Virus record (IMG/VR): IMGVR_UViG_3300001450_000081
Coordinates: 15,353 to 39,899 of that record
Source of the DNA: a virus
Length of the DNA: 24,547 nucleotides
Strand: one strand, 5' to 3'
Part shown: positions 2,140 through 23,767 of the stretch, one piece after another
How the letters are laid out: each line of letters opens with the position of its first letter
Numbering within the stretch: position 1 is the stretch's first letter
Translations under genes and position numbers: made by a program
Notes under the pieces: model-generated
Told to the model about the DNA's origin: nothing
Databases searched by the model: none
The model's input: only the letters and a program-made list of their open reading frames with translations

Positions 2140-5100
2140 CTATTTATCGTTATGTAGGTTTGATGGAGTGTAAGACATGTTAACAGCGTAAAGTTCAGTA
2201 GCTGTTTGTGCTGGGTTTTTCATAGCTATTTGAGCGTAATAGTCCCTAATGTTATCTCCGTTTATTTTATCTTCTGACACAGCCATTAAAGTATCTCCCA
2301 CTGTAACACCTGCAACTGTCGTGTTTGCTGTGACTTCTTTTCTACCAGACACAGATGATATAGTAAGACTCAAGCTTGTTTCAGATGATGATTCCAACTT
2401 AAATAAGGTGTCTCCAATTCCAAACGGCAAGTTACTGATTCTAGAGGAAAATGTAATCTTATCCCCATCAATAGCTGTTACTTGCCCCAGAACAATTTTG
2501 TGAGAAGTGTTCAGTGTTCCTCCTGTCTCATCCTTGCCCATCACACGATACCACATGTTTTCTTTTTCCGTGAACTCAGTGGAGGGCATAGATGCTGTGG
2601 TTTGATCTGAGTTAGATACCACCGCTGTCCAAGGGCTATCGCCCTCTAAAGACATAGCATCGTAAACCTTTACCATACTAGGGTTGCCTTTAGATACAAC
2701 AGTTACCTCGCTATCATTTGCTGAACTATAGAATAAGTTATGCTTAGGATTACTATTGTGCTTCCATATTTGACCATCCTTAAATGAAAAGAATCTGTCA
2801 TGTAAACGTGCGTAGTTCTCAGGAACAAACGAGTAGAATGTAAGCCACACTTGTTTAATTGTTGACCAAGCAACAGTCTCTCCTGGCACTGTTGTTTCAC
2901 TAGCTCCCTTTGTTAGTGTAACAGATCCTGCATTTGAAGTTCTTACTAATGAGGTTGGTAAAGACATTGTGCTGTCTTTTATAGACACAAACCCAAGTCC
3001 AGTAAAATCATCCCCAAACAAAGAAAACTTAATATTGACTGCCGATTCAGTTGCTCTATTATCAAAGGTAGTATCTAGAATAACACCTCCCTTTTCTGGG
3101 AGTTGATCAATGTATGCGATACCGTTTCCTGATCTCTCCCAATTGTCAGAATCCATCTGCCATAAGTTAGCGTCCTCATTCCACCAAGGAGCCCCGTTTT
3201 TTCTATACTCAGGATTAACAATAAGATCAGTGTAACCTTTGCCAGTACCCATTCTTGGGTTTTCGATACGAATAATGTCACCACCATCATCTGAAGGAAC
3301 ACTTAGCATTTGTGAGCTTATTTCACTCATGCTTACAATATACTCGTCATTCTCAGGATCTATACCACAAGGAACTTTCTTTCTAGCTGAAACGCTATCT
3401 ATAAGCCCTAGCTTTGTTTGGAAGTATGAATCCATGTGCTTCGCACTAATAGGCTGAAGACCGTTACTATCTAGCTGCAATACAGCCGCCCTAGAAACAT
3501 CTACAAAGTAAACCCTGCCAAACTTTTCAGTTACTCCTTCTGGTTGCAATCCAGGCCCGTAGTCGCCAGCATAGAACGTAGGTGTGCCCATAACATTCTG
3601 TGATGTTACAAGCTGCCCTCCTGCTGCGCTTTCAATTAACACCCTTGATATTGGAGTTGCTGAGACTTTATTTTCTTGCATTACAAGAAGAGCCTCGTTC
3701 CTATCCATCAAATAACAGATTGCTCCATGCTGCGTATTGTAGTCTTTGAATGGGAATAAAGAAGGATTGAATGAAGATAGATTTAATGTTGCGCTATCTA
3801 GAGTAAATACATCGCTATACGTAACAGATGATATTCTGCGTATCTCTTGTTGGTCTGGAGTTTCTATATGAGGCCTACCAATTGAAACCGCTTTTGATTC
3901 AAAGAAATCACTAGCCGATTGATCCTCAATAAAAAAAGTTTTATAGAATTGATCATCTGGCTTAGTTTCATCAGGCAAACCAGTAGTCGAGTCAAGAGCA
4001 TTAACTAGTAAAGACCTTCTCCTTAAATAAACATCCCCTGTAGATAATGTTACTACGCCTGCAAATATTCCATCGTTATTGCCTGGAGTAGCCACAACTG
4101 AATTGTTAGGGACGCCACTGCCTTGAATGCCTTGACTAAAATTATTTCCGTCTGTTGTGTAGGTGAAGGTTCCGTCATCATTAATATTTATTCCTATAAT
4201 GATAACAAACCCACTATCCGTACCAGCAGTTAAAACTTTATCTCCTATATATAAACGCTCAGAAGTAGTGAAATCGTTAAGACCATTTACAATAATGTTG
4301 AATGTAGAGCTTGTGAAATTATCTCTATCTCCTCCATGAGTTCTTAAACCTCCTTGTTCTACAATATCATAGCACTTTCCAATCTCATAATACCTTTGAT
4401 TCTCCTCTATCTTTGCTGGCCTATATATCTCTACAACACAGTTGTTTGAGAAGTAATCTGTTCCACCCGATACATTTCCTCTAGTAAAATTAGCAACATC
4501 CTCATCACGTATAGTCATAAAGAAACCAGTCCTTCTATAGGCGGTTTCATCAGATTCAACTGTTTCAGTTGTTAGCTTTATAGGATTGTTTTCATCGTCA
4601 CCATACATCTTGTATGACGTTATAGGGAACTCCGCAAGCGGTCTAACTTTTGCGCCATCAGAACTAATACACTCTATCACCCTTAGCATATCTCCCTCTC
4701 TGTATTCGTAAGATATGTTTGCGCCCTTAGATTCTTTGTATGAGTTGTTCTTGCCTTCTAAGCTTCTTAATGAAAGATAAATCAAACCACTAGTTCCACC
4801 CGCAAGCCCCTCTACTATGGGTCTTGTAACAGCGCCAGAGTCACTTAACGGATCTGCATAAGTTGTTTGCTTAGCAAGAGCTGCTTCTGACACTGAGATC
4901 TGAAGTATGCTTTCGTATGTAGTATTCTTAGAATACACAGGAGCCCACTTAGCTGCCCAAGATGGGGGCTCATGCTCTAGCCTAATGTCTATTTCAGACT
5001 TGCCTTCATTACCCAATCTAGAGCTTCTACCAAAGTGATCAACATCAACAGAATCAATTTTCTGTACACCACTTGGTCTATTCCTGTGATCAAAGTAAAC

Positions 5101-7458
5101 AACACCAAGATCATGTGTAGCCCCTGCCTTAAAAGACTCAAATGCTTTTGACTGATCATTAATGAATTCAATGCTTGCTGAGGTTTGTTTGAAACCCCTA
5201 TAGGCAGATACAACTTGATTAGTTCCGTCACCAAAGTCATCCTTCAATTCCATCCCAACAGCAGTTGTGTTTCCAGCACCACCTAGTATAGGAGCTGACA
5301 TATTCTGCTGAATATAAAGGCTACCTATATAGTTTATTGCGAGCTGCATGTTGAATGCGTTGATCGGGCTATCTGGATCATTATTGAAAGCCATATCTGG
5401 GTAACCTGTGATCAAAAGCTGTTTTAGACTTAAAGCCGTTTCAGTTACTCTGATTTTAAATCTAACCTTTGGGACATCATTATCAAGGAAATAAGTGCCT
5501 CCGTATAACTCAAAGGTTACAAACCCATCAAAAGTCATTCGTGCCATTAACTGATCAGTACCAGTAATCGCTACATTTTGGGTAGGATCAGAAATAGGTG
5601 TTGTAAAGACATTATTAATAGCAACTGTTGAGGTTATTAAAGACTGAATTGATTGACCTTCTAATGAATCTGAAGCATTGCCAAATACATCGTCTGTCTG
5701 AAGAACTCCTAAAAATTCAGTAGTCGCAGTTCCGTTTACAGCATTAATTAATTCATTTGCAAAAGCTTGCTCTATAGGGGTGTCACTGGTTGCTGCTATT
5801 TCGTCGGTAATGTCAACCGATGTAGAAAATGTTATAGGAGCTGTAGGCTGGAGATTGGAGATTGAAGTTGACGCTTGAATATCATCGCTAGTATTACTAA
5901 CATCACCAGAACTTAATCCACTAGTAAAACCATTTACACTGTTTCCTTGTGAGTCATTAAACCCAAAGTTTAAACCTGAGAACTGAGGAGTCAACACCTG
6001 CATGTTTAAAGATGTTGGAAGATTAGCATCAAGCAGTGCTTGTGGGGGATCTCCGTTTTCGTCAGTAAAAGTTACTGGGTAATCAAAATGATTGTTATCG
6101 CTACCAAATGTTCCAATACCAAACTCAGTAAAGTCAAACTTAGCAAGGAAGTTTATCTGACCTGGCTGTATAGTCTCCATGTCCACAACTTGACTGATGT
6201 CAATTTCAATCCCAGGATACCCATCAAACTGGCCATAAGAAACTAAATCATTACTAGCTGTTAATGTACTGGGCTCGTTAGTTCCAATTCTATTCCCAAG
6301 TATAAAGTCATAGTAATTCTGAAGAAACTCAGAAAATGAACCAGACTCAACCGCCCCTGCTTGTGAAGGGAGTTCTAAGTTAAAAGGTGTTGGATGATAT
6401 ATAGGGTAAGTGATGTTGCCATCCGTATTGATATTGTCAAAGCCCTCTAAGTAGTTAGAGTAAAACAATCTGTTGTTACTGACAGCTTGAGAAAAAGCCT
6501 TTCGAGGAACAGCATCAAAAGCTTTGAAAGCTTCTTGATCTGGCAACAGATTATAAATCCCATCGTTTCTAAAAGTAAATCCAACCGTTCCACCTTCAGG
6601 AGTGTTATCTACTTCGCCTATTCTATAAAAAGCTTGGTCATTATTCTTCCTAGCATAAATCCTTATCTTATCTACTGGAGCTTTAGTAGCTGTAAGAGTT
6701 AACTCTACAGCGTTATTCTCATCTTCAAAGAATGTTTTAGCAGTAATGTTATGAGCAAGGTTTGTCGTGCTTACAGCTATCTTAGAATACATTGATAAAG
6801 CGCTAGTCTCTCCATCATCATACACGTACTGATAAGCAAACTGAAAGATGTTGTTCTTTAGTTTGTTTGACTTGTTATTGTCTTCAGTTAAAAACTCGAA
6901 CGTAATTGGAGTTTGTGGTGGCTGCTTACACACAGTCAAGAACAGCTCTTTCTCCGCTGTAGATCCAGTCTGCAATACCGCTGAGTAATTTGACTGAAGC
7001 GCTCTAGTAGCGTTAATCTTTCTTGGCTCATTACGATTGTCAGTGAAGTACAATAAGTGTTCGCCAAACTGATTAATCACAACATCAGCCTTAACATGAT
7101 CTTGAGCTCCGAAGTTTAAAACAGAGTTTTCATAAACCATGTAGTATTGATCTGCGGTATACCTATACACATATATACCATGAAGCCCACCAGTGTTGTA
7201 TAAGAAGTAATAGATGCACTTACCCGCCTCAGAAGACACAGATCCAATAACTCTATTGCTACCAGAATCTGGAATTAAATCTCTAGGTAAGCTAGCTGAA
7301 ACAGCAGTATTTCCTTTAACATTCTTTAGAACACCTTGATTACCATCAGGATCATTAGAGACTCTAACATTAACAGCGTTAGACATCTCAACATTCTTTA
7401 TCAGTCTAGCGTCCTCATCCTTGTTGAGGTACTGTGGTATGAGCTTATCTATTGCCAT
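2140..7458 (-). CDS. Giant tail nozzle/muzzle-like protein (P22 gp10-like, crAss-like 'stabilization protein')
   Basis: 1772 residues, the largest gene here. The N-terminus (MAIDKLIPQYLNKDEDARLI) leads into repeated beta-rich segments, including HLLYFTDNRNEPRKIN near residue 140. Near residues 1290-1340 lies the segment GVTEKFGRVYFVDVSRAAVL followed by NGLQPIS. From memory of the family, this beta-propeller-like signature matches the nozzle/stabilization proteins of crAss-like and other Bacteroidota podoviruses. Residues about 380-760 are Ser/Thr/Asn-rich and look inserted relative to the core; P22 gp10 is only about 470 residues. It starts by a 1-nt TAATG overlap with the neck-protein gene and is followed 2 nt later by the internal-protein gene, the order expected for a tail-tip nozzle. 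A receptor-binding role for the inserted region is possible but unproven. Confidence 0.62.
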   Translation of the reverse strand: MAIDKLIPQYLNKDEDARLIKNVEMSNAVNVRVSNDPDGNQGVLKNVKGNTAVSASLPRDLIPDSGSNRVIGSVSSEAGKCIYYFLYNTGGLHGIYVYRYTADQYYMVYENSVLNFGAQDHVKADVVINQFGEHLLYFTDNRNEPRKINATRALQSNYSAVLQTGSTAEKELFLTVCKQPPQTPITFEFLTEDNNKSNKLKNNIFQFAYQYVYDDGETSALSMYSKIAVSTTNLAHNITAKTFFEDENNAVELTLTATKAPVDKIRIYARKNNDQAFYRIGEVDNTPEGGTVGFTFRNDGIYNLLPDQEAFKAFDAVPRKAFSQAVSNNRLFYSNYLEGFDNINTDGNITYPIYHPTPFNLELPSQAGAVESGSFSEFLQNYYDFILGNRIGTNEPSTLTASNDLVSYGQFDGYPGIEIDISQVVDMETIQPGQINFLAKFDFTEFGIGTFGSDNNHFDYPVTFTDENGDPPQALLDANLPTSLNMQVLTPQFSGLNFGFNDSQGNSVNGFTSGLSSGDVSNTSDDIQASTSISNLQPTAPITFSTSVDITDEIAATSDTPIEQAFANELINAVNGTATTEFLGVLQTDDVFGNASDSLEGQSIQSLITSTVAINNVFTTPISDPTQNVAITGTDQLMARMTFDGFVTFELYGGTYFLDNDVPKVRFKIRVTETALSLKQLLITGYPDMAFNNDPDSPINAFNMQLAINYIGSLYIQQNMSAPILGGAGNTTAVGMELKDDFGDGTNQVVSAYRGFKQTSASIEFINDQSKAFESFKAGATHDLGVVYFDHRNRPSGVQKIDSVDVDHFGRSSRLGNEGKSEIDIRLEHEPPSWAAKWAPVYSKNTTYESILQISVSEAALAKQTTYADPLSDSGAVTRPIVEGLAGGTSGLIYLSLRSLEGKNNSYKESKGANISYEYREGDMLRVIECISSDGAKVRPLAEFPITSYKMYGDDENNPIKLTTETVESDETAYRRTGFFMTIRDEDVANFTRGNVSGGTDYFSNNCVVEIYRPAKIEENQRYYEIGKCYDIVEQGGLRTHGGDRDNFTSSTFNIIVNGLNDFTTSERLYIGDKVLTAGTDSGFVIIIGININDDGTFTYTTDGNNFSQGIQGSGVPNNSVVATPGNNDGIFAGVVTLSTGDVYLRRRSLLVNALDSTTGLPDETKPDDQFYKTFFIEDQSASDFFESKAVSIGRPHIETPDQQEIRRISSVTYSDVFTLDSATLNLSSFNPSLFPFKDYNTQHGAICYLMDRNEALLVMQENKVSATPISRVLIESAAGGQLVTSQNVMGTPTFYAGDYGPGLQPEGVTEKFGRVYFVDVSRAAVLQLDSNGLQPISAKHMDSYFQTKLGLIDSVSARKKVPCGIDPENDEYIVSMSEISSQMLSVPSDDGGDIIRIENPRMGTGKGYTDLIVNPEYRKNGAPWWNEDANLWQMDSDNWERSGNGIAYIDQLPEKGGVILDTTFDNRATESAVNIKFSLFGDDFTGLGFVSIKDSTMSLPTSLVRTSNAGSVTLTKGASETTVPGETVAWSTIKQVWLTFYSFVPENYARLHDRFFSFKDGQIWKHNSNPKHNLFYSSANDSEVTVVSKGNPSMVKVYDAMSLEGDSPWTAVVSNSDQTTASMPSTEFTEKENMWYRVMGKDETGGTLNTSHKIVLGQVTAIDGDKITFSSRISNLPFGIGDTLFKLESSSETSLSLTISSVSGRKEVTANTTVAGVTVGDTLMAVSEDKINGDNIRDYYAQIAMKNPAQTATELYAVNMSYTPSNLHNDK

Positions 7459-8267
7459 TAATACTTAGGTGATTGCTTAAAGTTCTTACGGATAGTCTTG
7501 AGTGCTTCCTGCTGGCTAAACGATTTCAATCTAGAGTTAGCCTTCCTGCGCTCATTATAGTATTCAGATCGAGCTCTACCCTTTTCAGCCATAGGGACAT
7601 TACTCTTGCGCTCAACGAGCCTGTAGTATATGTATGACCTTAGAGCCTCTTCAGCCTGAACGTGAACTGTAGGGTTAGATGACCTAGCTTCATCAGCGAT
7701 ATATTCAATCACTACTTCGCTAGTAGGGTTGTTCGTGGCAAGCTCGATCCTGTTTTGATCAAAGTTAAGCCTATACTCTCCCTCGTAAAAGCCACCGCCT
7801 AACCCGTAGATCTGACCGATGTTGTTCTGGTATATGTAGTTTGAGAAAACAAGGAAGTCGTCTCCACCAAGAACACCGCTAGAAGATGAGCCAGTCTTAG
7901 CGTCCTCTCTGTCAAACACCCCATCACCATCACTATCTAAGTTATTTCCAGCGCTATCAGTCTTATATTTTTGAGAGTAGTTAATATTCTTATTCTCACC
8001 GAAGACATGAACCAATCCGTCAGACCCAACGATACCAATCTTAATAAGATCTACAAAATCATCAGGCAGCTCTACAGTGTTATTAGCTCCAGCTGAAAGC
8101 TTGATAGACCTAACCCGCTGGAGAAGATCAAACCCCATCTCTCTAACACCCCTTAAGGCGTAGTTATGTATTAACGTATCTGATGCGTTGTTAGCGTAGT
8201 CATCCCCTTCTAAGGTTAGTATGAAGTCGTTTACTACTTGTGATACGGTTACTAAATTCCTTGCCAT
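7458..8267 (-). CDS. Neck/ring protein (tail tubular A / P22 gp4-like candidate) with calcium-loop-like insert
   Basis: 269 residues. The N-terminal half is helical (about 1-55), followed by LPDDFVDLIKIGIVGSDG (about 69-86), beta segments, and a helical C-terminal third (EEALRSYIYYRLVERKSN). This layout of helices, LP-DFV strand and terminal helices matches my memory of head-to-tail adaptor/ring proteins in crAss-like and related phages, which bind below the portal. A striking insert around residues 109-122, NLDSDGDGVFDRED, has the DxDxDGxxDxxD spacing of thrombospondin type 3 or dockerin-like calcium loops. The gene sits between another neck candidate and the nozzle. The exact ring position cannot be deduced from sequence alone. 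Confidence 0.58.
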   Translation of the reverse strand: MARNLVTVSQVVNDFILTLEGDDYANNASDTLIHNYALRGVREMGFDLLQRVRSIKLSAGANNTVELPDDFVDLIKIGIVGSDGLVHVFGENKNINYSQKYKTDSAGNNLDSDGDGVFDREDAKTGSSSSGVLGGDDFLVFSNYIYQNNIGQIYGLGGGFYEGEYRLNFDQNRIELATNNPTSEVVIEYIADEARSSNPTVHVQAEEALRSYIYYRLVERKSNVPMAEKGRARSEYYNERRKANSRLKSFSQQEALKTIRKNFKQSPKY

Positions 8268-8270
8268 CTG

Positions 8271-9002
8271 TTATGCCTTTTTTGATTCAGCGTCCCCATA
8301 GTTATATACGTTAGGGTCTCTGAGGTTGACGCCTATAAGCTTAGCAATCTCAAACACTAAGTCAGAACTGTAATGTTCTGGGAGCTCAAAGTCAACTGAG
8401 GTAGAGGCGCTATACGCCTCTTTCCCATTGCTTGTAGTAAATCCAAACTTAGGAAGAGATACTGTCCTTGCTCCTGTAGAAGGATTAGATCCTTCTGGTT
8501 GCTTGTAATATCTTAATATAATCTTGTTTATGCTTGTAGGAAAGACTTCGAAGCTGTCCTTTACTATAGCTACTGGACGAGAAGTTGAAGGAGCTGATAG
8601 AGTACTAAGAAGAATCCTGTCAATCTTTTCTTCATCATAGATAGGATCAATCATTACTGAGCTAGTAACATCCAGAAGGACACTGCCAAAAGTCTTCATG
8701 CTTATAAGCCTAGCAAAGTCATCGGGCTTTGCAAATACACCAGAAGCTTTGGTAACTGTGGAGTTTTTAGAAAACACCCCTAAGTCCTCCTTGAGCTGCT
8801 TGATTCTAGACTTGTCTCTAGCTGGATCTAAGTTGCGCCTACGCATTGCTTCTGCAAGCGTTAAGTCTGCAAACAGCTTATTAAAAATGTTCTGTTGTGC
8901 AATGGGAGCGAACGAATTAAATTCCGTAGGAGTCACGAAACCTCGCTGCTCCTTATTCGCTAAGTCACTCAATGCATTATATACTTCCCTTACACTTGCC
9001 AT
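8271..9002 (-). CDS. Neck/connector structural protein candidate
   Basis: 243 residues starting MASVREVYNALSDLANKEQR, followed by GFVTPTEFNSFAPIAQQNIF. This N-terminal pattern (helix, NKEQRG, T/SPxEFN, AQxxIF) is one I associate with a conserved structural protein in Bacteroidota podoviruses, coded just before the gp4-like neck gene. The rest is mixed alpha/beta, including a strand-rich segment near residues 145-165 (SINKIILRYYKQPEG). It is the first gene after a terminator and has its own promoter box, so it leads a neck-nozzle-internal protein transcription unit. Role inferred from position and N-terminal pattern; no catalytic residues seen. Confidence 0.55.
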   Translation of the reverse strand: MASVREVYNALSDLANKEQRGFVTPTEFNSFAPIAQQNIFNKLFADLTLAEAMRRRNLDPARDKSRIKQLKEDLGVFSKNSTVTKASGVFAKPDDFARLISMKTFGSVLLDVTSSVMIDPIYDEEKIDRILLSTLSAPSTSRPVAIVKDSFEVFPTSINKIILRYYKQPEGSNPSTGARTVSLPKFGFTTSNGKEAYSASTSVDFELPEHYSSDLVFEIAKLIGVNLRDPNVYNYGDAESKKA

Positions 9003-9024
9003 TATTGATATATCTTCAGATAGG

Positions 9025-9032
9025 CAAATATA
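9025..9032 (-). promoter_or_regulatory. Bacteroidota-type -7 box TATATTTG before the neck-protein gene
   Basis: The plus strand reads CAAATATA, giving TATATTTG on the minus strand, an exact match to the flavobacterial -7 consensus TAnnTTTG. Its last base lies 22 nt before the ATG at 9002. A TTG lies 27 nt upstream of the box, longer than the usual 17-23, so the -33 element is doubtful. The box directly abuts the U-run of a terminator, so this looks like a fresh start of transcription. Confidence 0.5.
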
Positions 9033-9053
9033 AGAAAAGGGGCCGAAGCCCCT
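9032..9053 (-). terminator. Intrinsic terminator with UUCG tetraloop
   Basis: On the minus strand, AGGGGC-TTCG-GCCCCT forms a 6-bp stem closed by a UUCG tetraloop (9038-9043 paired with 9048-9053), followed by TTTTCTTA. It lies about 30 bases past the stop of the AT-hook protein gene and immediately before the neck-gene promoter box. Confidence 0.75.
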
Positions 9054-9083
9054 CTCTTACAATCACTATGAGTAAAAAACCGT

Positions 9084-9941
9084 CTAGGCAATATCAGACA
9101 GCTGCCTTTCGATTTCAGATAGTACCGAAGATCCTTTGTCTGTCATGCAGAAACGAGTTAACGTATCAATGGAGTCTTGGCCTACTGGTACCGAAACTAC
9201 AACTTTACTTGTGTCGGGCCAAATAATAACCCCATTTTTTTCCATGACAATCTGAAAGTCTAATGCTTGCATCACTGTTGTACGTGCGTGAACTATAGGG
9301 TTGTCAAACATTTCGATAAACTTTTTCGGCTGTTTTTTAGCATACACCACAAGAGCCCTCTTTACCAATAAGTCCTTTTGATTTGTATTAATGTTTAAAG
9401 CCAAAGCAACAGGCAAAAGGTCTTCAAGTGGTCTTGATTTTATCATTGAAATAGCGTCTGTAATTAGAAACTCATCTTCAATTTCTTTTTCAAAGTCCAC
9501 CTTCTTATCTATAAGGTAAAAGGCGCCTCCCCCGTTTGCTCTATTGTCAGGGTGCTTGTTTAAATAATCGATAAGGTTTGGCTGATCATGCCTGACGATA
9601 AGGTTTTTTTCCCTAAAAATAACATGCTCTCTAACAGCTGACTTTGATTGCTCGTCAACATAAATAGACGGCTCTCCTGGGCAGTACCTTATTATTCTTC
9701 TTTGCCTAGATTCCTCGTCGTAAATAGAGATGTTGTTGGCTCTTAGTTTAAAGAACACACCTCCCTTGCCTCCGATTGTTTCGTACATCTTAGGCATCCT
9801 ATCTTCGTTAGGAATGCTCCTTTTTATAACAGAACCAGTTTTAGATACTGCTTTCTTTTTAGGGGATGTAGTTGGGGCTGTAGTTTCTTTGCGAGCTATA
9901 GGGCGGCCTCGCTTTACCGCTGGATTTTGTTCTTGTTCCAT
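9084..9941 (-). CDS. Conserved-looking phage protein with N-terminal AT-hook, function unknown
   Basis: 285 residues. Residues about 8-45 are basic and Pro/Thr/Ala-rich with an AT-hook-like KRGRP core (10-14), suggesting minor-groove DNA contact. The folded part from about residue 50 contains GGVFFKLRANNISIYDEES, then RIIRYCPGEPSIYVDEQ, a strand-rich segment, and helical sequence from about 150 to 225. I have the impression that similar RxIRYCxGExSIxVDEQ proteins occur in marine phage structural regions, but I know no assigned function. The gene is isolated by a terminator on each side (9972-10002 and 9032-9053), so its dose can differ from capsid and neck genes. No exact TAnnTTTG box was found in the 80 bases before it, so read-through from the capsid operon may drive it. 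Confidence 0.6.
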   Translation of the reverse strand: MEQEQNPAVKRGRPIARKETTAPTTSPKKKAVSKTGSVIKRSIPNEDRMPKMYETIGGKGGVFFKLRANNISIYDEESRQRRIIRYCPGEPSIYVDEQSKSAVREHVIFREKNLIVRHDQPNLIDYLNKHPDNRANGGGAFYLIDKKVDFEKEIEDEFLITDAISMIKSRPLEDLLPVALALNINTNQKDLLVKRALVVYAKKQPKKFIEMFDNPIVHARTTVMQALDFQIVMEKNGVIIWPDTSKVVVSVPVGQDSIDTLTRFCMTDKGSSVLSEIERQLSDIA

Positions 9942-9963
9942 GATATTAAAATCTTATTGAATT

Positions 9964-10002
9964 AAAAAAATAAAAGGGAGAGAGCTATCCCCTCTCCCTT
10001 TT
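9964..10002 (-). terminator. Strong intrinsic terminator after the capsid operon
   Basis: Perfect 11-bp inverted repeat: AAAAGGGAGAG at 9972-9982 and CTCTCCCTTTT at 9992-10002, with a 9-nt loop. On the minus strand the stem is followed by A and then seven T residues (9970-9964). It sits 20 nt past the stop of the small capsid-associated gene, marking the end of the scaffold-capsid unit. Confidence 0.85.
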
Positions 10003-10021
10003 CTTATAGGATAGTTAACTA

Positions 10022-10399
10022 TTAAGCATTATCAGCAATAACAGTAAAGTTAGCTATAGAAGCAATATCTGAGTGTGCGTACTCAGCAGCTTGATCATCA
10101 GCCACAACAATAAACTCATCCCTAGATTTAGCAAATTGTTCTACCAAACCCTGCATGACCGCCTTTTGGTTATTAGCAGTTGTAATTGTTATAACAACAC
10201 TGTCGTTGATACCAAAAGTAGCATCATCGTGTCCAGCGGCGTAACTATTGTGTTTTCCTTTAAAAAACAACTCAAGCGTACTATTACCTACAGACTCCAT
10301 TCCTAAGAATGAAGATAACGGATAAGTGTTAGATCCAGCAGCAGCATCATCATCGTTACCAGCAGTTGGATCAGCACGAAAATATAAATATTTCTCCAT
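10022..10399 (-). CDS. Small capsid-associated protein candidate
   Basis: 125 residues, acidic, no Cys. It starts MEKYLYFRADPTAG and shows alternating strands: NSTLELFFKGKH (about 39-50), SVVITITTANNQKAVMQGL (about 67-85, strand then helix), and FTVIADNA at the end. This strand-strand-helix-strand pattern is one I associate with small proteins coded beside the capsid gene in marine phages, where they may be capsid cement or minor head proteins. It lies 25 nt downstream of the capsid gene with no promoter box and ends at a strong terminator, so it is probably co-expressed with capsid. No enzymatic motif is seen. Confidence 0.6.
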   Translation of the reverse strand: MEKYLYFRADPTAGNDDDAAAGSNTYPLSSFLGMESVGNSTLELFFKGKHNSYAAGHDDATFGINDSVVITITTANNQKAVMQGLVEQFAKSRDEFIVVADDQAAEYAHSDIASIANFTVIADNA

Positions 10400-10424
10400 G
10401 TTTCTAGAATTTTAAAATTGATAA

Positions 10425-11906
10425 TTAAGTTCCTTGAATAAGAACGTGCTGGTTAGCACTTCTAGTAACAAGACAACACTCTGAACGATAGTTGAATTTA
10501 GCCGTATCCTCAGTAGTATTAGTAAAACCAAGTACACCACCACCAGTTACCCAGTGCTCCATTTCACGAGAATATCCACCAGCAGACTTGTAGTTCATTT
10601 CAAGAGCAGGAGCTCTTTCGCCTGAACGTGGATCTACTACGTTAGCTAAAGGAATCATAACACCAGCAGCTAAACGATTGTGAACATCGTCATTTCCAAG
10701 AAGAGTAGGGTCATTCAACAACTTGAAGCTATTCTTGTGGAAAGTATATCCTCCACGAGAGAAAGACTTAAAGCCTAGATTCAACGCCATATCCCTATCG
10801 TTATTGAAAGCACCGAAAGAAGAAGCTACACCAGCAGTAACGCCAGTTCCAGCGCCAGCGCCAGCGATCATGTCATCAAGCATAAGATCCTGAGCAGTCG
10901 CTGAGTAAACAGCGTATTCAGCAGGACATCCGTTCCTGTCCATCTCCCTAATAAGAGCGTCAAGATCACCAAGGCCAGTAGAGCCAAGAAGGTCTGAAGT
11001 TACCATACCTCTATCCTCAAGAGCTGAGAAATAGCCCTCAGTGCCGTCTATGTCTGTAATACCATGTGAGGTATCAATATTAGTAACAGCCTGACCTAGA
11101 AGCATAACCATCTCACGCTTGTCCATAAAGCGCTGACGAGTATCCATCTCGCCCTTAACGTACCAGCGGTAATCTCCACCTCCTACGTCAATGTATCCGA
11201 GGTTAGTCGCTTGCGAACCTGAAACTTCAAAAGATTCCTTAACGATAGCGTAAGGATTAGTCCTCCTAACTACGTTAGACTCTAGGAAGTTAGTAGGCTG
11301 CTCAGAACCTTGAGCGAACATATTACCAACGATTGGCATAGTGTAAGTAGTTTCATCAACTAAAGCTACACTTGGCGCAGCAGCTCCGTCAGCAGCATTC
11401 GCTCCAAGCAAAGGCTTAGTAGTGAACCCTGTAGCAGTAACAGCAGTAACCAATAAGCGGTCAACACCATTAATAAGAAGGACGTCTCCAACACGACAAA
11501 CGATTTGAACATCAGTACCTTCAGTAGAGATTGTTGCAGCAGAAACAACGCCATCAAAAATCAAACCACCAGCAATGTCACTAAGGTCACTAGCTTGAGC
11601 ACCACCATCCTTATCGACTGCACTAGCAATAGTAGCAGTTTGAGTTTGGTGAAGACGAGCTTCCTCAAAGTATTGAACATTGTCAGCAGTACCATTGTTC
11701 TTGATAGCGCCAGTCATTTTCAAAAATCCAGATATGCCTTGGTTACCGAAACTCTTCGATAGCTTAGCACGAACGTCTGGAGCGTTGACTTCGTCAATGA
11801 AGTCGTACAACGAAGTATACTTCGTTGGAGTAGCCAGATTATACAGGTTGTTGTTGATGCCCCTAGGAGCACTACTAAACGTACCTGTGTTTTGAGTAAT
11901 TGCCAT
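10425..11906 (-). CDS. Major capsid protein
   Basis: 493 residues, the usual size for an HK97-fold capsid protein of this phage type. It starts MAITQNTGTFSSAPRGINNN and has helical sequence at about 30-65 (SLYDFIDEVNAPDVRAKLSK). A strand-rich small domain follows (about 130-165, with GDVLLINGVDRLLVTAVTA), like an inserted beta domain. Later segments are typical of a capsid core: a helix with GQAVTNIDTSHGITDIDG, SFGAFNNDRDMALNL, and near the C-terminus ALEMNYKSAGGYSREMEHWV. Codons look more G+C-rich and more uniform than in neighbouring genes, fitting very high expression. It follows the scaffold candidate by 17 nt. No protease gene is visible beside it, so P22-like assembly without a separate protease is possible. 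Identification rests on size, context and overall look. Confidence 0.82.
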   Translation of the reverse strand: MAITQNTGTFSSAPRGINNNLYNLATPTKYTSLYDFIDEVNAPDVRAKLSKSFGNQGISGFLKMTGAIKNNGTADNVQYFEEARLHQTQTATIASAVDKDGGAQASDLSDIAGGLIFDGVVSAATISTEGTDVQIVCRVGDVLLINGVDRLLVTAVTATGFTTKPLLGANAADGAAAPSVALVDETTYTMPIVGNMFAQGSEQPTNFLESNVVRRTNPYAIVKESFEVSGSQATNLGYIDVGGGDYRWYVKGEMDTRQRFMDKREMVMLLGQAVTNIDTSHGITDIDGTEGYFSALEDRGMVTSDLLGSTGLGDLDALIREMDRNGCPAEYAVYSATAQDLMLDDMIAGAGAGTGVTAGVASSFGAFNNDRDMALNLGFKSFSRGGYTFHKNSFKLLNDPTLLGNDDVHNRLAAGVMIPLANVVDPRSGERAPALEMNYKSAGGYSREMEHWVTGGGVLGFTNTTEDTAKFNYRSECCLVTRSANQHVLIQGT

Positions 11907-11923
11907 TTTTTCTTAGATAAATG

Positions 11924-12970
11924 TTATGGATTAAAAGTAACACCATCACCACCCCCAAAAGCTTGAAGCAATTGATCTTGACTTATACCTGAGCCAGATT
12001 GTCCATCTCCGACAGACGGTCTAGAGGAATCGACATTAGCTGCTGATTGAACAACACCCATCCTACCGTCACTCAATCCTTGATTGTAGATAGAGGCTGT
12101 AATAGAATCGATATTATCAACCAACGCCCTATGAGCGTTTAGCTTGTCAAAATCCCATGAACCATTGTCGCTCACGTAGTCATCAAAATAATTCTCAAGA
12201 TTAGAGTTTCTCTGAATCAACTGCTTCCTATAGCCCTCATCAATTCCAAAGTTGAACGTCTCGTTCTTTCCTGGAAGATCAAACTCTAGTCTACCGAACA
12301 TGTTAGTGTTCTCAGACATTTCAGAAATCCACTCCTTAGAGATAGGTGTGTTGTCTTGATTTACCCCAACATCAGGAGACTTATACGAATCTCGTAATTC
12401 TCCAACATGCTTACGGGCATTTTCCGCATCCATCTTGAGTTGTAGCTTAGCCAACTTAACTTCGTCTTCACTGTGAAAATCTTCATCCAGCTTATACTTG
12501 TTGCTGATCAAAAGATCTATATCACTAGGTTCGAGATTGGAATGCTCGGAAGACATCTGTAGGCGAATAAGCGCCATCTCATCCATTTCGGATGGATCAA
12601 GCGATTGATACCTATACCAGTCTTCTGGCGATCTACCAGTCTCTAAAACGAATTTGTTGATTGCGCTAACACGCTCATCAATTTCAACGGGTTTATAAGA
12701 AAGAGCTTCAGATATAGAATCGTAGCTATCAAAGTCCTTGCCTAGCTTTTCGCTTAGGCGAGAAAATATTCTACTATCAATATCGTCAGCTTTCGCTTCT
12801 TGTTGTTGCGGAGCTTCTTGCTCCCCAGTAACTTCTTTAACAGGAGCCTCGCTCGCAGCTTGGGGCTGCTCTTGGGCCTGAGGTTGTTGTTGTTCTTGTT
12901 GTTGAACAGGTGGTTCAGAACTAACAGCATAGCCAGCTTCTCCTAATGCATTTTCAATGTCTTTATTCAT
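11924..12970 (-). CDS. Scaffolding protein candidate
   Basis: 348 residues, very acidic. Residues about 20-62 are low-complexity Gln/Pro/Glu/Ala (many QQ and PQ steps), a flexible N-terminal tail. The middle (about 65-200) is charged and helical with DIDSRIFSRLSEKLGKDF and EDEVKLAKLQLKMDAENARK. The end is Gly/Ser/Gln-rich (SGSGISQDQLLQAFGGG). High acidity, predicted helices, disordered tails and a place directly upstream of the capsid gene (17-nt gap) are what scaffolding proteins show. They direct prohead assembly and then leave the shell. No direct motif proves it. A minor head protein would be the alternative. Confidence 0.72.
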   Translation of the reverse strand: MNKDIENALGEAGYAVSSEPPVQQQEQQQPQAQEQPQAASEAPVKEVTGEQEAPQQQEAKADDIDSRIFSRLSEKLGKDFDSYDSISEALSYKPVEIDERVSAINKFVLETGRSPEDWYRYQSLDPSEMDEMALIRLQMSSEHSNLEPSDIDLLISNKYKLDEDFHSEDEVKLAKLQLKMDAENARKHVGELRDSYKSPDVGVNQDNTPISKEWISEMSENTNMFGRLEFDLPGKNETFNFGIDEGYRKQLIQRNSNLENYFDDYVSDNGSWDFDKLNAHRALVDNIDSITASIYNQGLSDGRMGVVQSAANVDSSRPSVGDGQSGSGISQDQLLQAFGGGDGVTFNP

Positions 12971-13929: not shown

Positions 13930-13937
13930 CAAATATA
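13930..13937 (-). promoter_or_regulatory. Bacteroidota-type -7 box TATATTTG before the small virion protein gene
   Basis: The plus strand reads CAAATATA, i.e. TATATTTG on the minus strand, exactly TAnnTTTG. The ATG at 13900 follows after 29 nt. A TTG lies 27 nt upstream of the box within an A-rich run, the same long spacing as at 9025. It sits in the 63-nt gap between two virion genes, where no other gene start needs it. Confidence 0.5.
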
Positions 13938-17271: not shown

Positions 17272-17286
17272 ATATTTGCAAATATA
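17272..17286 (-). promoter_or_regulatory. -7 box TATATTTG within a perfect palindrome before the portal gene
   Basis: The minus strand has TATATTTG (17286 to 17279), an exact TAnnTTTG box, ending 22 nt before the portal ATG at 17256. A TTG lies 16 nt upstream of the box, close to the usual 17-23. The box overlaps a perfect 14-bp palindrome ATATTTGCAAATAT (17272-17285), which could be an operator. Confidence 0.55.
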
Positions 17287-17293
17287 GAGCTTT

Positions 17294-20895: not shown

Positions 20896-21174
20896 TTAAT
20901 TTAAACAGATGTTTCCAAGGAGGTCGTCCTTGTCTTCACCATTTATTTCGTAAGCCTCTTCTAGTATCATGAGAAGCTCATTAAACTCTTTGCTGTTATT
21001 TATATTCCAAGAATAACCAGCGGTATATTCAGTCCCAGATAAACCTCGTTTTTTATCAATACCAAAACAGAAGACATATGAGAAGTCATCACTAAATCCC
21101 TCCTCTTCAGCTATGTCTGAAAGGTCTTTCATTAGTGACGATATTTTAATGATCAAGTCTTTATAGTTATCCAT
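20896..21174 (-). CDS. Small acidic protein of unknown function
   Basis: 92 residues, strongly acidic. An N-terminal helix (MDNYKDLIIKISSLMKDLSD) and a C-terminal helix (NELLMILEEAYEINGEDKDD) flank a central strand pair with FSYVFCFGIDKKRGLSGTEY and TAGYSWNIN. No motif is recognised. The start overlaps the stop of the fibre-like gene by one base (TAATG), so its translation is probably coupled to that gene. Confidence 0.6.
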   Translation of the reverse strand: MDNYKDLIIKISSLMKDLSDIAEEEGFSDDFSYVFCFGIDKKRGLSGTEYTAGYSWNINNSKEFNELLMILEEAYEINGEDKDDLLGNICLN

Positions 21175-22046
21175 TAAGCGGCTCCTATAACTGCGATGCT
21201 GCTTGGGTTTGCATTAGTTGTAGTAAGTCTAGCATCAACGACCCATGTGGCCACACTTGAAATTGTAGCTCCGTATATTTCAATAACATCACCTTGAGCA
21301 CCACCGCCTGTCGCAGAGTTACCATCTAAAGATAATGTGTCATTGTCGTAAGAGTTTCCTGTGTTCGCTACTATTTGAACAGCCCGTTGTTCATCAGTAG
21401 TACTTTCAACAGAAACCTTGCCTATAAATCTTTGAACTGTTCCGCTTGTTCCAGCGTTAGCTGTAACAATATTAAACTCGGTGTTGCTCGTTGTAATAAA
21501 AAGAAACTTAAAATACAATCCCGCAGCACACGTAGGCAATGTAACAGTATCTCCAGCTAAGGCATTTGAATCTAAGAGATGAACCTTACCCGAATCAGCA
21601 GCAGTAAGTGATACAGTGTCGTTTACAAGATTAGTAGTTTGGTTTGTGTTTGCAAATGTGATTGTATTAGCTGATTGAGTAATATCAATACCAACACCCC
21701 CGCTAAAAACAATTGATGTAGAGTTTCCTCCTGAATCAGCGATTGCTACTGTAGGATTAGTAGCCCCTGTTATAGTAGTGGTAACTGTTTCAAAACTGGG
21801 TAGAGTTCTATAACCAACACTCTTTGTTGACGAGTCCCACACTAAGACGTTTGTAGAGGAAGCTTTAAGTGGAGCGTCAATTTGTAACGTTGCTGCTTTT
21901 ACAGTGGTGGATGAAACAGATAGGGCAGTATCATTACCGCTACCATCTTGAATAGTTTTAAGTGTCCCAGAAACGGCAGCACTATCAGAAGTCTTTAGTA
22001 AGCCTTGGTAAGTGTTTTTTATTGAGTTGCCAGAAAGAGTTGCCAT
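21174..22046 (-). CDS. Fibre/appendage-like virion protein
   Basis: 290 residues, rich in Thr, Ser, Ala and Asn, and in strands. The first 80 residues (IKNTYQGLLKTSDSAAVSGT, then LKTIQDGSGNDTALSVSST and NVLVWDSSTKSVGYRTLPSF) form a pattern I associate with the shaft or anchor of head and tail fibres in marine phages. The region after about residue 140 (TNLVNDTVSLTAADSGKVHL, LPTCAAGLYFKFLF) looks like a beta-rich knob, ending in SSIAVIGAA. This is the first gene of the minus-strand run toward terminase, reading from a TATATTTG box 19 nt before its ATG. Receptor binding or head decoration are both possible. Confidence 0.65.
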   Translation of the reverse strand: MATLSGNSIKNTYQGLLKTSDSAAVSGTLKTIQDGSGNDTALSVSSTTVKAATLQIDAPLKASSTNVLVWDSSTKSVGYRTLPSFETVTTTITGATNPTVAIADSGGNSTSIVFSGGVGIDITQSANTITFANTNQTTNLVNDTVSLTAADSGKVHLLDSNALAGDTVTLPTCAAGLYFKFLFITTSNTEFNIVTANAGTSGTVQRFIGKVSVESTTDEQRAVQIVANTGNSYDNDTLSLDGNSATGGGAQGDVIEIYGATISSVATWVVDARLTTTNANPSSIAVIGAA

Positions 22047-22051
22047 ATTGT

Positions 22052-22059
22052 TAAATTTG
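22052..22059 (+). promoter_or_regulatory. Plus-strand -7 box TAAATTTG before the winged-helix gene
   Basis: TAAATTTG matches TAnnTTTG exactly. A TTG at 22027-22029 lies 22 nt upstream, within the usual spacing. The ATG at 22079 follows 19 nt after the box, so the leader would be about 12-14 nt. Confidence 0.6.
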
Positions 22060-22065
22060 TAGAAG

Positions 22066-22073
22066 CAAATATA
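22066..22073 (-). promoter_or_regulatory. Minus-strand -7 box TATATTTG before the fibre-like gene
   Basis: The plus strand reads CAAATATA, giving an exact TAnnTTTG box on the minus strand, 19 nt before the ATG at 22046. No good -33 TTG is seen. It faces the plus-strand box 6 bp away in a 32-bp divergent gap, so the two transcripts would run through each other's promoter. Confidence 0.5.
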
Positions 22074-22078
22074 ATTAA

Positions 22079-22516
22079 ATGGCTAGACACCATAAAGGGA
22101 GGAAGATGAGAGAGTTCTCATACCTCAACGAAAGGTACGTAAGTAAAAACTACCTAAAGTATTACAAGCATGCTATTCGTGACATATCAGGAAGGACGGG
22201 CTTAACAATGAATGAGATCAATGTCATGGTATTCATGTATGACTACGAGTTCTTTACAGCAACCCATATGTCTCAAGCTCTGTATCAGAGCGATAGGAAG
22301 TTTAGGAATAAAGTCCTATACCCTCTACAACAGAGAGGATGGATAGAAAAAGCCTTTGATAGGAATAAGGTTAGCGAGATGACTTTCTCTGAAGCCATGT
22401 TCCATGAACGAGGTAACTATAAGAATAGGTACACCTTGTCACAGAAAGCTAGGCTTGCTGTTCAGCGGTTCTACCGTAAACTAGAAGGGTTAGAGGAAAT
22501 TGTAATCCCCGATTAA
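22079..22516 (+). CDS. Winged-helix DNA-binding protein, probable phage regulator
   Basis: 145 residues, basic. After a charged start (MARHHKGRKMREFSYLNERY), residues about 35-90 follow a MarR-type winged helix: SGRTGLTMNEINVMVFMYDY, EFFTATHMSQALYQSDRKFR (recognition helix region), and NKVLYPLQQRGWIEKAFD (helix and wing). The end NRYTLSQKARLAVQRFYRKL is a further helix pair. The VMVFMYDYEFFTATHM phrase resembles a protein I recall from Bacteroidota phages near structural genes. It reads against the late genes from a 32-bp divergent gap, a common layout for a regulator that binds its own promoter region. A small-terminase-like role cannot be excluded. Its TAA stop overlaps the opposing gene's stop in TTAA. 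Confidence 0.72.
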   Translation: MARHHKGRKMREFSYLNERYVSKNYLKYYKHAIRDISGRTGLTMNEINVMVFMYDYEFFTATHMSQALYQSDRKFRNKVLYPLQQRGWIEKAFDRNKVSEMTFSEAMFHERGNYKNRYTLSQKARLAVQRFYRKLEGLEEIVIPD

Positions 22517-22707
22517 GACTTCGAGTGGCTAGCTGTTTTAAACATCGCCTTCTCAACAGCGCCTGGATGCGGCTTATAATCACCCTCCATTAGGTAGTAC
22601 CTACCCTGCTCTTCCATCCAGTGGTAGCCTTTCGGTGGGTTTACTTCAATCTTCTCATCTGAAATTGACAGCTTGCCACCCTCCTCGTATCGTTTTCCAA
22701 CTTTCAT
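22513..22707 (-). CDS. Small phage protein with GYHWMEE...HPGA motif, function unknown
   Basis: 64 residues. It starts MKVGKRYEEGGKLSISDEKI and continues with PPKGYHWMEEQGRYYLMEGD and YKPHPGAVEKAMFKTASHSK. The YKPHPGA-x-x-x-A-x-F ending is one I associate with small proteins in marine phages, with no known role. The opening resembles the start of the 238-residue protein at 23776-24492 (MKLGKRKKK) and its internal GGK/EEGG motifs. The start overlaps the preceding gene's stop by 4 nt (ATGA type, 22704-22707), and its stop shares TTAA with the convergent regulator gene. Confidence 0.6.
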   Translation of the reverse strand: MKVGKRYEEGGKLSISDEKIEVNPPKGYHWMEEQGRYYLMEGDYKPHPGAVEKAMFKTASHSKS

Positions 22708-23063
22708 TTCTTTTTTCTTTTAATAGGAATGTTAACTCTAAGAGAAGCGCTTGGATTAACTTTCCCTTCAGAGGTGTAGGCCGAAGCGCCACCAGTAACT
22801 CTTATGCCCTTAATTTGTGTAGACGCAGAAGCGCCCCCGAAAAAACCTTGACCAGCCACTCCCCCTAAGTATGCTGAGGCAGAAGTTTTCTTTGGGGTGC
22901 GAGAAGGGATTTTGATCTTAGGAGAGGATGCTTTCTCTCCTTTACTTGTCAAATCAACAGATTGATTTTTTTGACCTTCAATTGACCAATTCTTTATTGG
23001 CTTCGCTAACACATCTAGTAGCACATCAACCTTTGTCTTTTTTTTCTTCTTGTCTTTCGGCAT
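22704..23063 (-). CDS. Highly basic small protein with Gly/Ala/Ser repeats
   Basis: 119 residues with a poly-Lys opening (MPKDKKKKKTKVD) and a Lys-rich end (PIKRKKK). Between lie a basic Ser/Pro region (about 45-60) and a Gly/Ala/Ser-rich beta-like part with near repeats: ASAYLGGVAGQGFFGGASAS, then IKGIRVTGGASAYTS, then KVNPSASLRVNIPI. The charge suggests binding to DNA or RNA, for example as an internal head protein. That is inference only. It lies 2 nt after the membrane-protein gene. Confidence 0.55.
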   Translation of the reverse strand: MPKDKKKKKTKVDVLLDVLAKPIKNWSIEGQKNQSVDLTSKGEKASSPKIKIPSRTPKKTSASAYLGGVAGQGFFGGASASTQIKGIRVTGGASAYTSEGKVNPSASLRVNIPIKRKKK

Positions 23064-23065
23064 AT

Positions 23066-23275
23066 CTACGATATAAATTTATAAAGATCCTCGGCCACTA
23101 TTTCTAGTGAGTCCTTAAGCTTTTGAAGATCTGCCTTTGTTTCTTCAGCTTTCCTTTCTAAGGCGTCAGGAATAAAATTACTGTTCTTATCAACTTCTCT
23201 GTTGTTTAGTAGATACACAAGGTATATACATGCACACAACAATAAACCACACATTACGCTTAAAAATAAAATCAT
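23066..23275 (-). CDS. Small N-terminally anchored membrane protein with coiled coil (spanin/holin-like candidate)
   Basis: 69 residues. Residues 2-23 (ILFLSVMCGLLLCACIYLVY) form a single transmembrane helix. A short loop follows with DKNSNFIPDALE (about 29-40), which has the D/N spacing of a calcium-binding loop. Then a charged coiled coil runs to the end (ERKAEETKADLQKLKDSLEI). An inner-membrane anchor plus a short coiled coil is the layout of an i-spanin, which links membranes during lysis, but spanins are usually longer. No endolysin or holin is visible nearby, so a membrane or superinfection role is equally possible. A TATATTTG box lies 60 nt before its ATG. Confidence 0.6.
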   Translation of the reverse strand: MILFLSVMCGLLLCACIYLVYLLNNREVDKNSNFIPDALERKAEETKADLQKLKDSLEIVAEDLYKFIS

Positions 23276-23296
23276 ATCTAAAGTTTTGTTAATAAC

Positions 23297-23328
23297 TTGC
23301 TTTTTAAATCAACAAGTCCTTATATTAG
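23297..23328 (+). promoter_or_regulatory. Plus-strand promoter candidate for the exported protein gene
   Basis: TTG at 23297-23299, a 21-nt spacer, then TATATTAG at 23321-23328, one mismatch from TAnnTTTG. The ATG at 23351 follows 22 nt after the box. Confidence 0.45.
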
Positions 23329-23343
23329 TAGAAATCAAATATA
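23320..23343. repeat. Copy 2 of the 23-24 bp dual-promoter element
   Basis: The plus strand reads TTATATTAGTAGAA, then AT, then CAAATATA, matching the copy at 22051-22073 in 20 of 24 columns. It ends 7 nt before the ATG of the exported protein gene. Confidence 0.6.
23336..23343 (-). promoter_or_regulatory. Minus-strand -7 box TATATTTG upstream of the membrane-protein gene
   Basis: The plus strand reads CAAATATA, giving an exact TAnnTTTG on the minus strand. The leader to the ATG at 23275 would be about 55 nt, longer than at the other sites. No convincing -33 element. Confidence 0.4.
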
Positions 23344-23350
23344 CATCATT

Positions 23351-23767
23351 ATGAAGAATTTATTTTTTATCGGAGCACTATTGATAGCAGGAGCCTTTCA
23401 AGCTCAAGACACTTTTGACAGCATTGAATGGGAGAACAACTGGTTCTTTGATAAGGAGAGCAAGATGTACCAAGAATCATGCTGGAACACAGTTTCTTTT
23501 ATTGAAAACGACAGTGTAGACTGGGTCTTAGTTATGCGTGTAATAGAAAACAAAATAGGAGAGTTAGAGTTTCTGCCTTACAATTACATAGTCTTAGGTC
23601 GTGACCACCAAGACGACATACGTATCTACTGTGACGGCACGTTTGTCGCTGCTGGTTTTAATAAGGAAGGTAGCCAGTGTACGGAGTTTAAGTACTTCCT
23701 ATCTAGCTACTACTTCTGTGATGATACGGGAAAAGGTAATGTGGAGCTTGAGCTAACTATGAAGTAG
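23351..23767 (+). CDS. Small exported protein with signal peptide, function unknown
   Basis: The frame opens at 23297, but the ATG at 23351 is chosen because it begins a clear signal peptide, MKNLFFIGALLIAGAFQAQ, with likely cleavage after AQAQ-type Gln19. That gives 138 residues and a mature part near 119. The mature part is acidic, with strands such as WVLVMRVIENKIGELEFLPY, and four Cys (44, 94, 110, 123) that could form two disulfides in the periplasm. No known domain is recognised. It is transcribed opposite to the late genes from its own promoter element and ends in its own terminator, like an independent accessory cassette. Host surface change or superinfection exclusion is a guess; the sequence does not decide it. 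Confidence 0.7.
   Translation: MKNLFFIGALLIAGAFQAQDTFDSIEWENNWFFDKESKMYQESCWNTVSFIENDSVDWVLVMRVIENKIGELEFLPYNYIVLGRDHQDDIRIYCDGTFVAAGFNKEGSQCTEFKYFLSSYYFCDDTGKGNVELELTMK

Follow-up and report, generated by a model that had tools for sequence, protein, structure and literature searches.

Facing −7 boxes as putative bidirectional promoters of two early-orientation genes in the late module of a Bacteroidota phage

Two genes that run against the late genes of a Bacteroidota phage are each preceded by a short element in which two −7 boxes, one on each strand, face each other. Dual promoters at both elements are well supported by sequence comparison. Each element is probably a compact bidirectional promoter with exclusive occupancy, and late transcription would silence the two plus-strand genes. 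The elements and the features around them are collected in Table 1.

Table 1. Elements, boxes and genes of the window to which the argument refers.
Feature	Position	Strand	Remark
Element 1, facing −7 boxes	22051..22073	both	plus TAAATTTG 22052-22059, minus TATATTTG 22066-22073, gap 6 bp
Element 2, facing −7 boxes	23320..23343	both	plus TATATTAG 23321-23328 (1 mismatch), minus TATATTTG 23336-23343, gap 7 bp
145-aa protein, predicted MarR-like winged helix	22079..22516	+	keeps an orientation contrary to that of terminase in about 100 loci
138-aa exported protein	23351..23767	+	position and promoter kept in relatives, protein differs
−33 TTG of second plus promoter	23297..23299	+	21 nt before its −7 box
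Candidate late promoter box TATATTTG	9025..9032	−	before gene starting 9002; directly after terminator-like hairpin 9056-9035
Candidate late promoter box TATATTTG	13930..13937	−	before gene starting 13900
Candidate late promoter box TATATTTG	17279..17286	−	before portal gene starting 17256
290-aa late gene	21174..22046	−	predicted to be driven by minus box of element 1
Late genes, 69 + 119 + 64 aa	22513..23275	−	predicted to be driven by minus box of element 2

The stretch of DNA analysed here, called the window, is 24,547 nucleotides long and corresponds to bases 15353-39899 of a 39,899-base IMG/VR record (IMGVR_UViG_3300001450_000081). Its predicted genes are those of the late module of a Bacteroidota phage resembling podoviruses. 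The terminase is ~40% identical to that of a Flavobacterium Elemovirus and 48% identical to that of an uncultured Manatee Spring phage, and portal and capsid were assigned via PHROGs. A 1772-aa protein (window 2140-7458) matches the Crassvirus muzzle families PF25731 and PF25729, which points to a distant crAss-like relationship. Among the related loci, L082 encodes a 3243-aa protein (2708-12439) whose sole match is a short DUF7178. A tblastn search for cultured relatives, with the regulator as query against 50,697 phage records, gave no match, and the Elemovirus and Manatee Spring records have no opposite-strand gene upstream of terminase.

All genes of the 39.9-kb record are leftward save those for the 145-aa and 138-aa proteins. 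The initial annotation called these the only two plus-strand genes, which holds for the record and not for the virus. Complete relatives (55-65 kb) consist of a one-strand late block of 40-45 kb and a gene block on the other strand; only two plus genes are seen here because the record is a fragment, and they are probably not the whole plus-strand content of the virus. In these relatives the regulator gene lies inside the late block and is oriented like the second block. That block is named ‘early’ by analogy with crAss-like phages, in which modules follow strand (PMC8375218), and the timing label is putative. The contrast of early and late genes drawn earlier is better described as a late module with genes of early orientation embedded in it. 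In the literature on promoters of Cellulophaga and crAss-like phages, nothing was found beyond module-level timing for crAss001.

The positions and sequences of both elements were re-derived as first described, together with their match in 20 of 24 columns, their distances to the ATGs of the winged-helix gene (5 nt) and the exported-protein gene (7 nt), the plus boxes, the exact minus boxes, the gaps, and a TTG 22 nt (element 1) or 21 nt (element 2) upstream of the plus box. By column, the match comprises 7/9 in the plus box, 8/8 in the minus box and 5/7 in the spacer. The similarity resides in a pair of Bacteroidota-type −7 boxes that face each other (TAnnTTTG ... CAAATATA) and in the spacer; TAnnTTTG is exact in three of the four boxes and has one mismatch in the fourth. 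Within the window, TATATTTG-N0-2-TTCTACnAA occurs at these two places only, and in 0 of 100 shuffles. Single TAnnTTTG boxes show no overall enrichment across the window (29 against 23 expected), and a scan for E. coli-type promoters gave no more matches than in shuffles. L001 is the closest relative in which both junctions are present; its boxes are kept and its spacers are different (TGTAG and CAGAAA). The repeat is therefore better described as a pair of boxes than as a unit of 24 bp. Conservation over the full 24 bp was rejected: a search of relatives recovered the facing boxes and not the exact sequence, and only the boxes persist.

In Flavobacterium, measurements place the −7 box between −12 and −5, counted from the start (PMC9723704). 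From this box position, starts are predicted at ~22064 (+) and ~22061 (−) for element 1, with leaders of ~15 nt, and at 23333 (+) and 23331 (−) for element 2. The predicted separation is 9-g bp for a gap of g, which amounts to ~3 bp here and to about +6 to −2 in relatives.

The minus boxes resemble those of the late genes in general. On the minus strand of the window TATATTTG has five copies, each upstream of the start codon of a minus gene, and on the plus strand it has none. Of 450 late starts in 12 related genomes, 90 have TAnnTTTG upstream, in 60 cases exactly TATATTTG; of 407 in-gene control stretches, 10 have TAnnTTTG. By sequence and placement, the minus boxes of both elements belong to this putative late-promoter set, as two of its five members in the window. 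No −33 element stands out at the late boxes of the 12 related genomes, where TTG is mostly absent; the flanks do stand out, with a run rich in T ahead of the box and C/T behind it.

Several other observations concern the late boxes. About one quarter of them (22/91; 12 related genomes) end just 4-5 nt before the called ATG and would give leaderless or near-leaderless messages. A terminator-like GC hairpin with a T-run (window 9035-9056) is followed directly by a late box, and comparable pairs occur in L162 near 11329, in L140 and in L174; in such pairs a terminator and a promoter may be fused into one unit that separates late genes. A near-perfect palindrome, ATATTTGCAAATAT (window 17272-17290), includes the late box upstream of the portal gene, and there is no plus-strand gene for it to serve. 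Early-orientation genes, for their part, are largely without host-type boxes (TAnnTTTG before 14 of 197 starts in the 12 genomes), and a separate polymerase for early genes is conceivable.

The case for element 1 draws on conservation at the regulator junction. Regulators fall into 31 clusters at 75% identity, of which 18 have a divergent neighbour starting 25-45 nt away. An exact facing pair is present in 12 of these 18, and a pair with at most one mismatch in 17, against 0.01 and 0.13 expected from letter shuffles, expectations that overstate independence because the clusters share descent. This problem is limited by the spread of regulator identity (about 33-100%) and by the two types of neighbour. 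In 1.29 Mb of related loci, 20 of the 22 distinct strict facing pairs lie at the regulator junction. Where a box precedes a gene, the reverse box is found at 22 of 40 regulator sites and at 12 of 292 sites elsewhere (Fisher p about 1e-15), and 10 of those 12 are the regulator junction read from the opposite strand. Some clusters have a 290-aa-type gene as divergent neighbour and others a 100-aa gene unrelated to it, which means that the facing pattern does not derive from one particular neighbour. At the other divergent junctions of 12 genomes a facing pair occurs at one site, with one mismatch. The proposal of promoters on both strands thus gains support from facing boxes kept over deep divergence and nearly absent elsewhere, and from the place of the minus boxes in the late set.

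There is a small chance that the leftward late promoter alone is functional and that the rightward −7-like box is a coincidence of an A+T-rich leader. In favour of this reading, the rightward box takes several forms (TAAATTTG, TAATTTTA, TCTTTTTG) where the leftward one hardly changes, and late leaders are A-rich; against it, the reverse box is almost never present in other late leaders, the plus box is also retained in several clusters that have no facing minus box, and the second junction retains a −33 TTG at near-fixed spacing. A conserved −33 TTG for element 1 was rejected: it is not kept beyond close relatives, and it falls within codons of the neighbouring gene.

A serious rival to a regulatory role, mainly for element 1, is plain genome compaction, to which we give just short of an even chance. 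Independent promoters of divergent genes ~30 bp apart would then overlap, and exclusion would occur with no regulatory role. A distance of 29-40 nt between the start codons at the regulator junction partly forces promoter overlap, and each box lies at the usual distance from its own start. Furthermore, clusters in which the divergent gene abuts the regulator are without a close facing pair, so the pair is not needed for the regulator in general. On the other hand, the facing layout is missing from most of the other divergent junctions in the 12 genomes. In the abutting-gene clusters (L066, L040, L063, L023 and others) a reverse box CAAAnnTA is located ~57 nt inside the regulator coding sequence; it may be the promoter of the neighbour, but it coincides with conserved Gln-Arg-Tyr codons.

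The second junction also bears on compaction. Its start codons are 42-86 nt apart, mostly 74-84, so the facing layout retained at element 2 is not forced by lack of space alone. The minus box CAAATATA is unchanged in 9 of 11 junction variants, with one-letter changes in the other two, and TTG(AC) stands at N20-21 before the plus box in 8 of the 10 distinct homologous junctions having that box. The plus box takes the forms TATATTAG, TATACTTG, TATGTTAG, TATATTGG and TATATGAG; with one or two mismatches to the consensus in every variant, it is less certain to be active. Upstream of other early-orientation genes of this phage group, including an unrelated 305-aa gene and an 88-aa gene (L129, L134, L137, L132), there is a similar sequence, CTTGACTCGTAT-N-TAnnnTTG, which is likely a strong early promoter in common with the exported-protein junction. 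As a general early promoter, TTGAC-N17-20-TA was rejected, with no enrichment at early versus late gene starts; its occurrence is limited to the exported-protein junction and a small number of other genes in early orientation. The exported protein itself has no family match in profile searches and varies among close relatives at a constant site with a kept promoter (about 390-760 in L001), a position that may be a variable cargo slot.

The 145-aa protein is predicted to have a MarR-like fold. Its AlphaFold2 model is a confident winged helix (pLDDT 86), and the best PDB matches are MepR, AbsC, AbfR and MarR (E 4e-4 to 1e-3, TM about 0.5-0.6). Against Pfam no MarR or HTH model was matched up to E 0.1, and no match in the profile libraries (Pfam, PHROGs) gives the protein a name. 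MarR proteins usually bind pseudo-palindromic sites that cover the divergent promoters of their own genes, and both elements are imperfect inverted repeats. The facing boxes could thus be half-sites of an operator for this protein, serving autoregulation and control of the second junction. A MarR dimer would need a fixed half-site distance, and the gap between facing boxes ranges over 3-11 bp in relatives and is unequal between the two copies in most genomes (element 1/element 2 gaps of 6/7 here, then 5/6, 3/9, 3/10, 3/7, 3/7 and 3/11, with one 5/5), which disfavours one dimer spanning both boxes. An operator with fixed half-site spacing was set aside on these grounds. In addition, the half-sites match the sigma box of late genes genome-wide, and no other sequence was seen common to both junctions. 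The operator reading is improbable, which also counts against the suggestion that the 145-residue protein uses the two boxes of the element as its operator.

Returning to the bidirectional promoter, the observed sequence, conservation and geometry lead us to infer the following initiation, timing and order of events. At each element two opposed −7 boxes of the Bacteroidota primary-sigma type would face each other across 3-11 bp, with start sites that nearly coincide and with overlapping melted regions and polymerase footprints. The leftward box (TATATTTG) would be an ordinary late promoter, and the rightward box would serve an early-orientation gene in the late block, either the MarR-like regulator or, with a −33 TTG, the exported protein. 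RNA polymerase would sit in just one direction at once. With predicted starts ~3 bp apart, binding would be mutually exclusive on physical grounds if both promoters are used. The claim of the initial annotation that the polymerases exclude each other therefore follows from the geometry if both fire, and exclusion in vivo is what we infer from it. Rightward transcription would take place while late promoters are weak; strong late transcription would turn the plus genes off by shared-site occupancy and antisense read-through. The 3′ end of the regulator gene overlaps that of the facing 64-aa gene by 4 nt (22513-22516), and no terminator was found between these convergent ends, so late read-through from element 2 would cross the regulator gene antisense. 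In E. coli, the two directions of a bidirectional promoter do not compete at basal activity, which also suits compaction, and one is repressed only when the other is strongly activated (PMC12825309). By this analogy the most likely role here is one-way, with late activation extinguishing the plus genes. It is a tentative and rather unlikely proposal that facing −7 boxes with one start region form a one-site toggle, by which the late programme ejects the transcription of the embedded regulator, selected across a large Bacteroidota phage clade.

Temperate phages of the P2/186 type have face-to-face promoters tens of bp apart, with long overlapping transcripts, that serve lysogeny. These systems share with the present one opposed promoters, interference that decides between two programmes, and a regulator gene on one side. 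They differ in that here the starts nearly coincide, the opposed programmes are early-orientation and structural genes, and no integrase is seen in the window, which belongs to a fragmentary record. MarR-family systems are similar in the predicted fold and in a regulator gene beside a divergent promoter, whereas here there is no sequence-family match and no operator of fixed spacing. With the primary-sigma promoters of Bacteroidota (−33 TTG / −7 TAnnTTTG; PMC9723704, PMC7366714) the elements share the box sequence and, at the plus promoter of element 2, a TTG 20-21 nt before the box. In contrast, late promoters of this phage group are mostly without the −33 TTG, which, in work as cited in PMC7366714, was likewise not found for F. 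johnsoniae promoters. The bidirectional promoters described by Warman, Grainger and colleagues (PMC12825309, PMC10268837) are alike in that a pseudo-symmetric −10/−7 region drives both strands and one orientation blocks the other. In those the −10 is usually shared and the starts are separated by 18 bp (or by 10 or 23; PMC12825309), whereas here two separate −7 boxes face each other, no −10 is shared and the predicted starts are 3 bp apart. The boxes are also of the Bacteroidota type and lie in a phage genome. At gaps of 6 and 7 bp (3-11 in relatives), the opposed elements here are near enough for mutual exclusion, which would stem from this geometry.

To our knowledge, little is known of the timing of genes in Bacteroidota phages. 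By sequence comparison, many distant uncultured relatives appear to keep the paired layout, but not the exact sequence or a matching regulator site. What results is a precise, sequence-level prediction with a regulator gene attached: mutually exclusive starts on opposite strands, 3 bp apart, at both elements of this genome and in numerous relatives. If confirmed, the elements would constitute a very compact switch and would extend bidirectional promoters to a facing-box layout.
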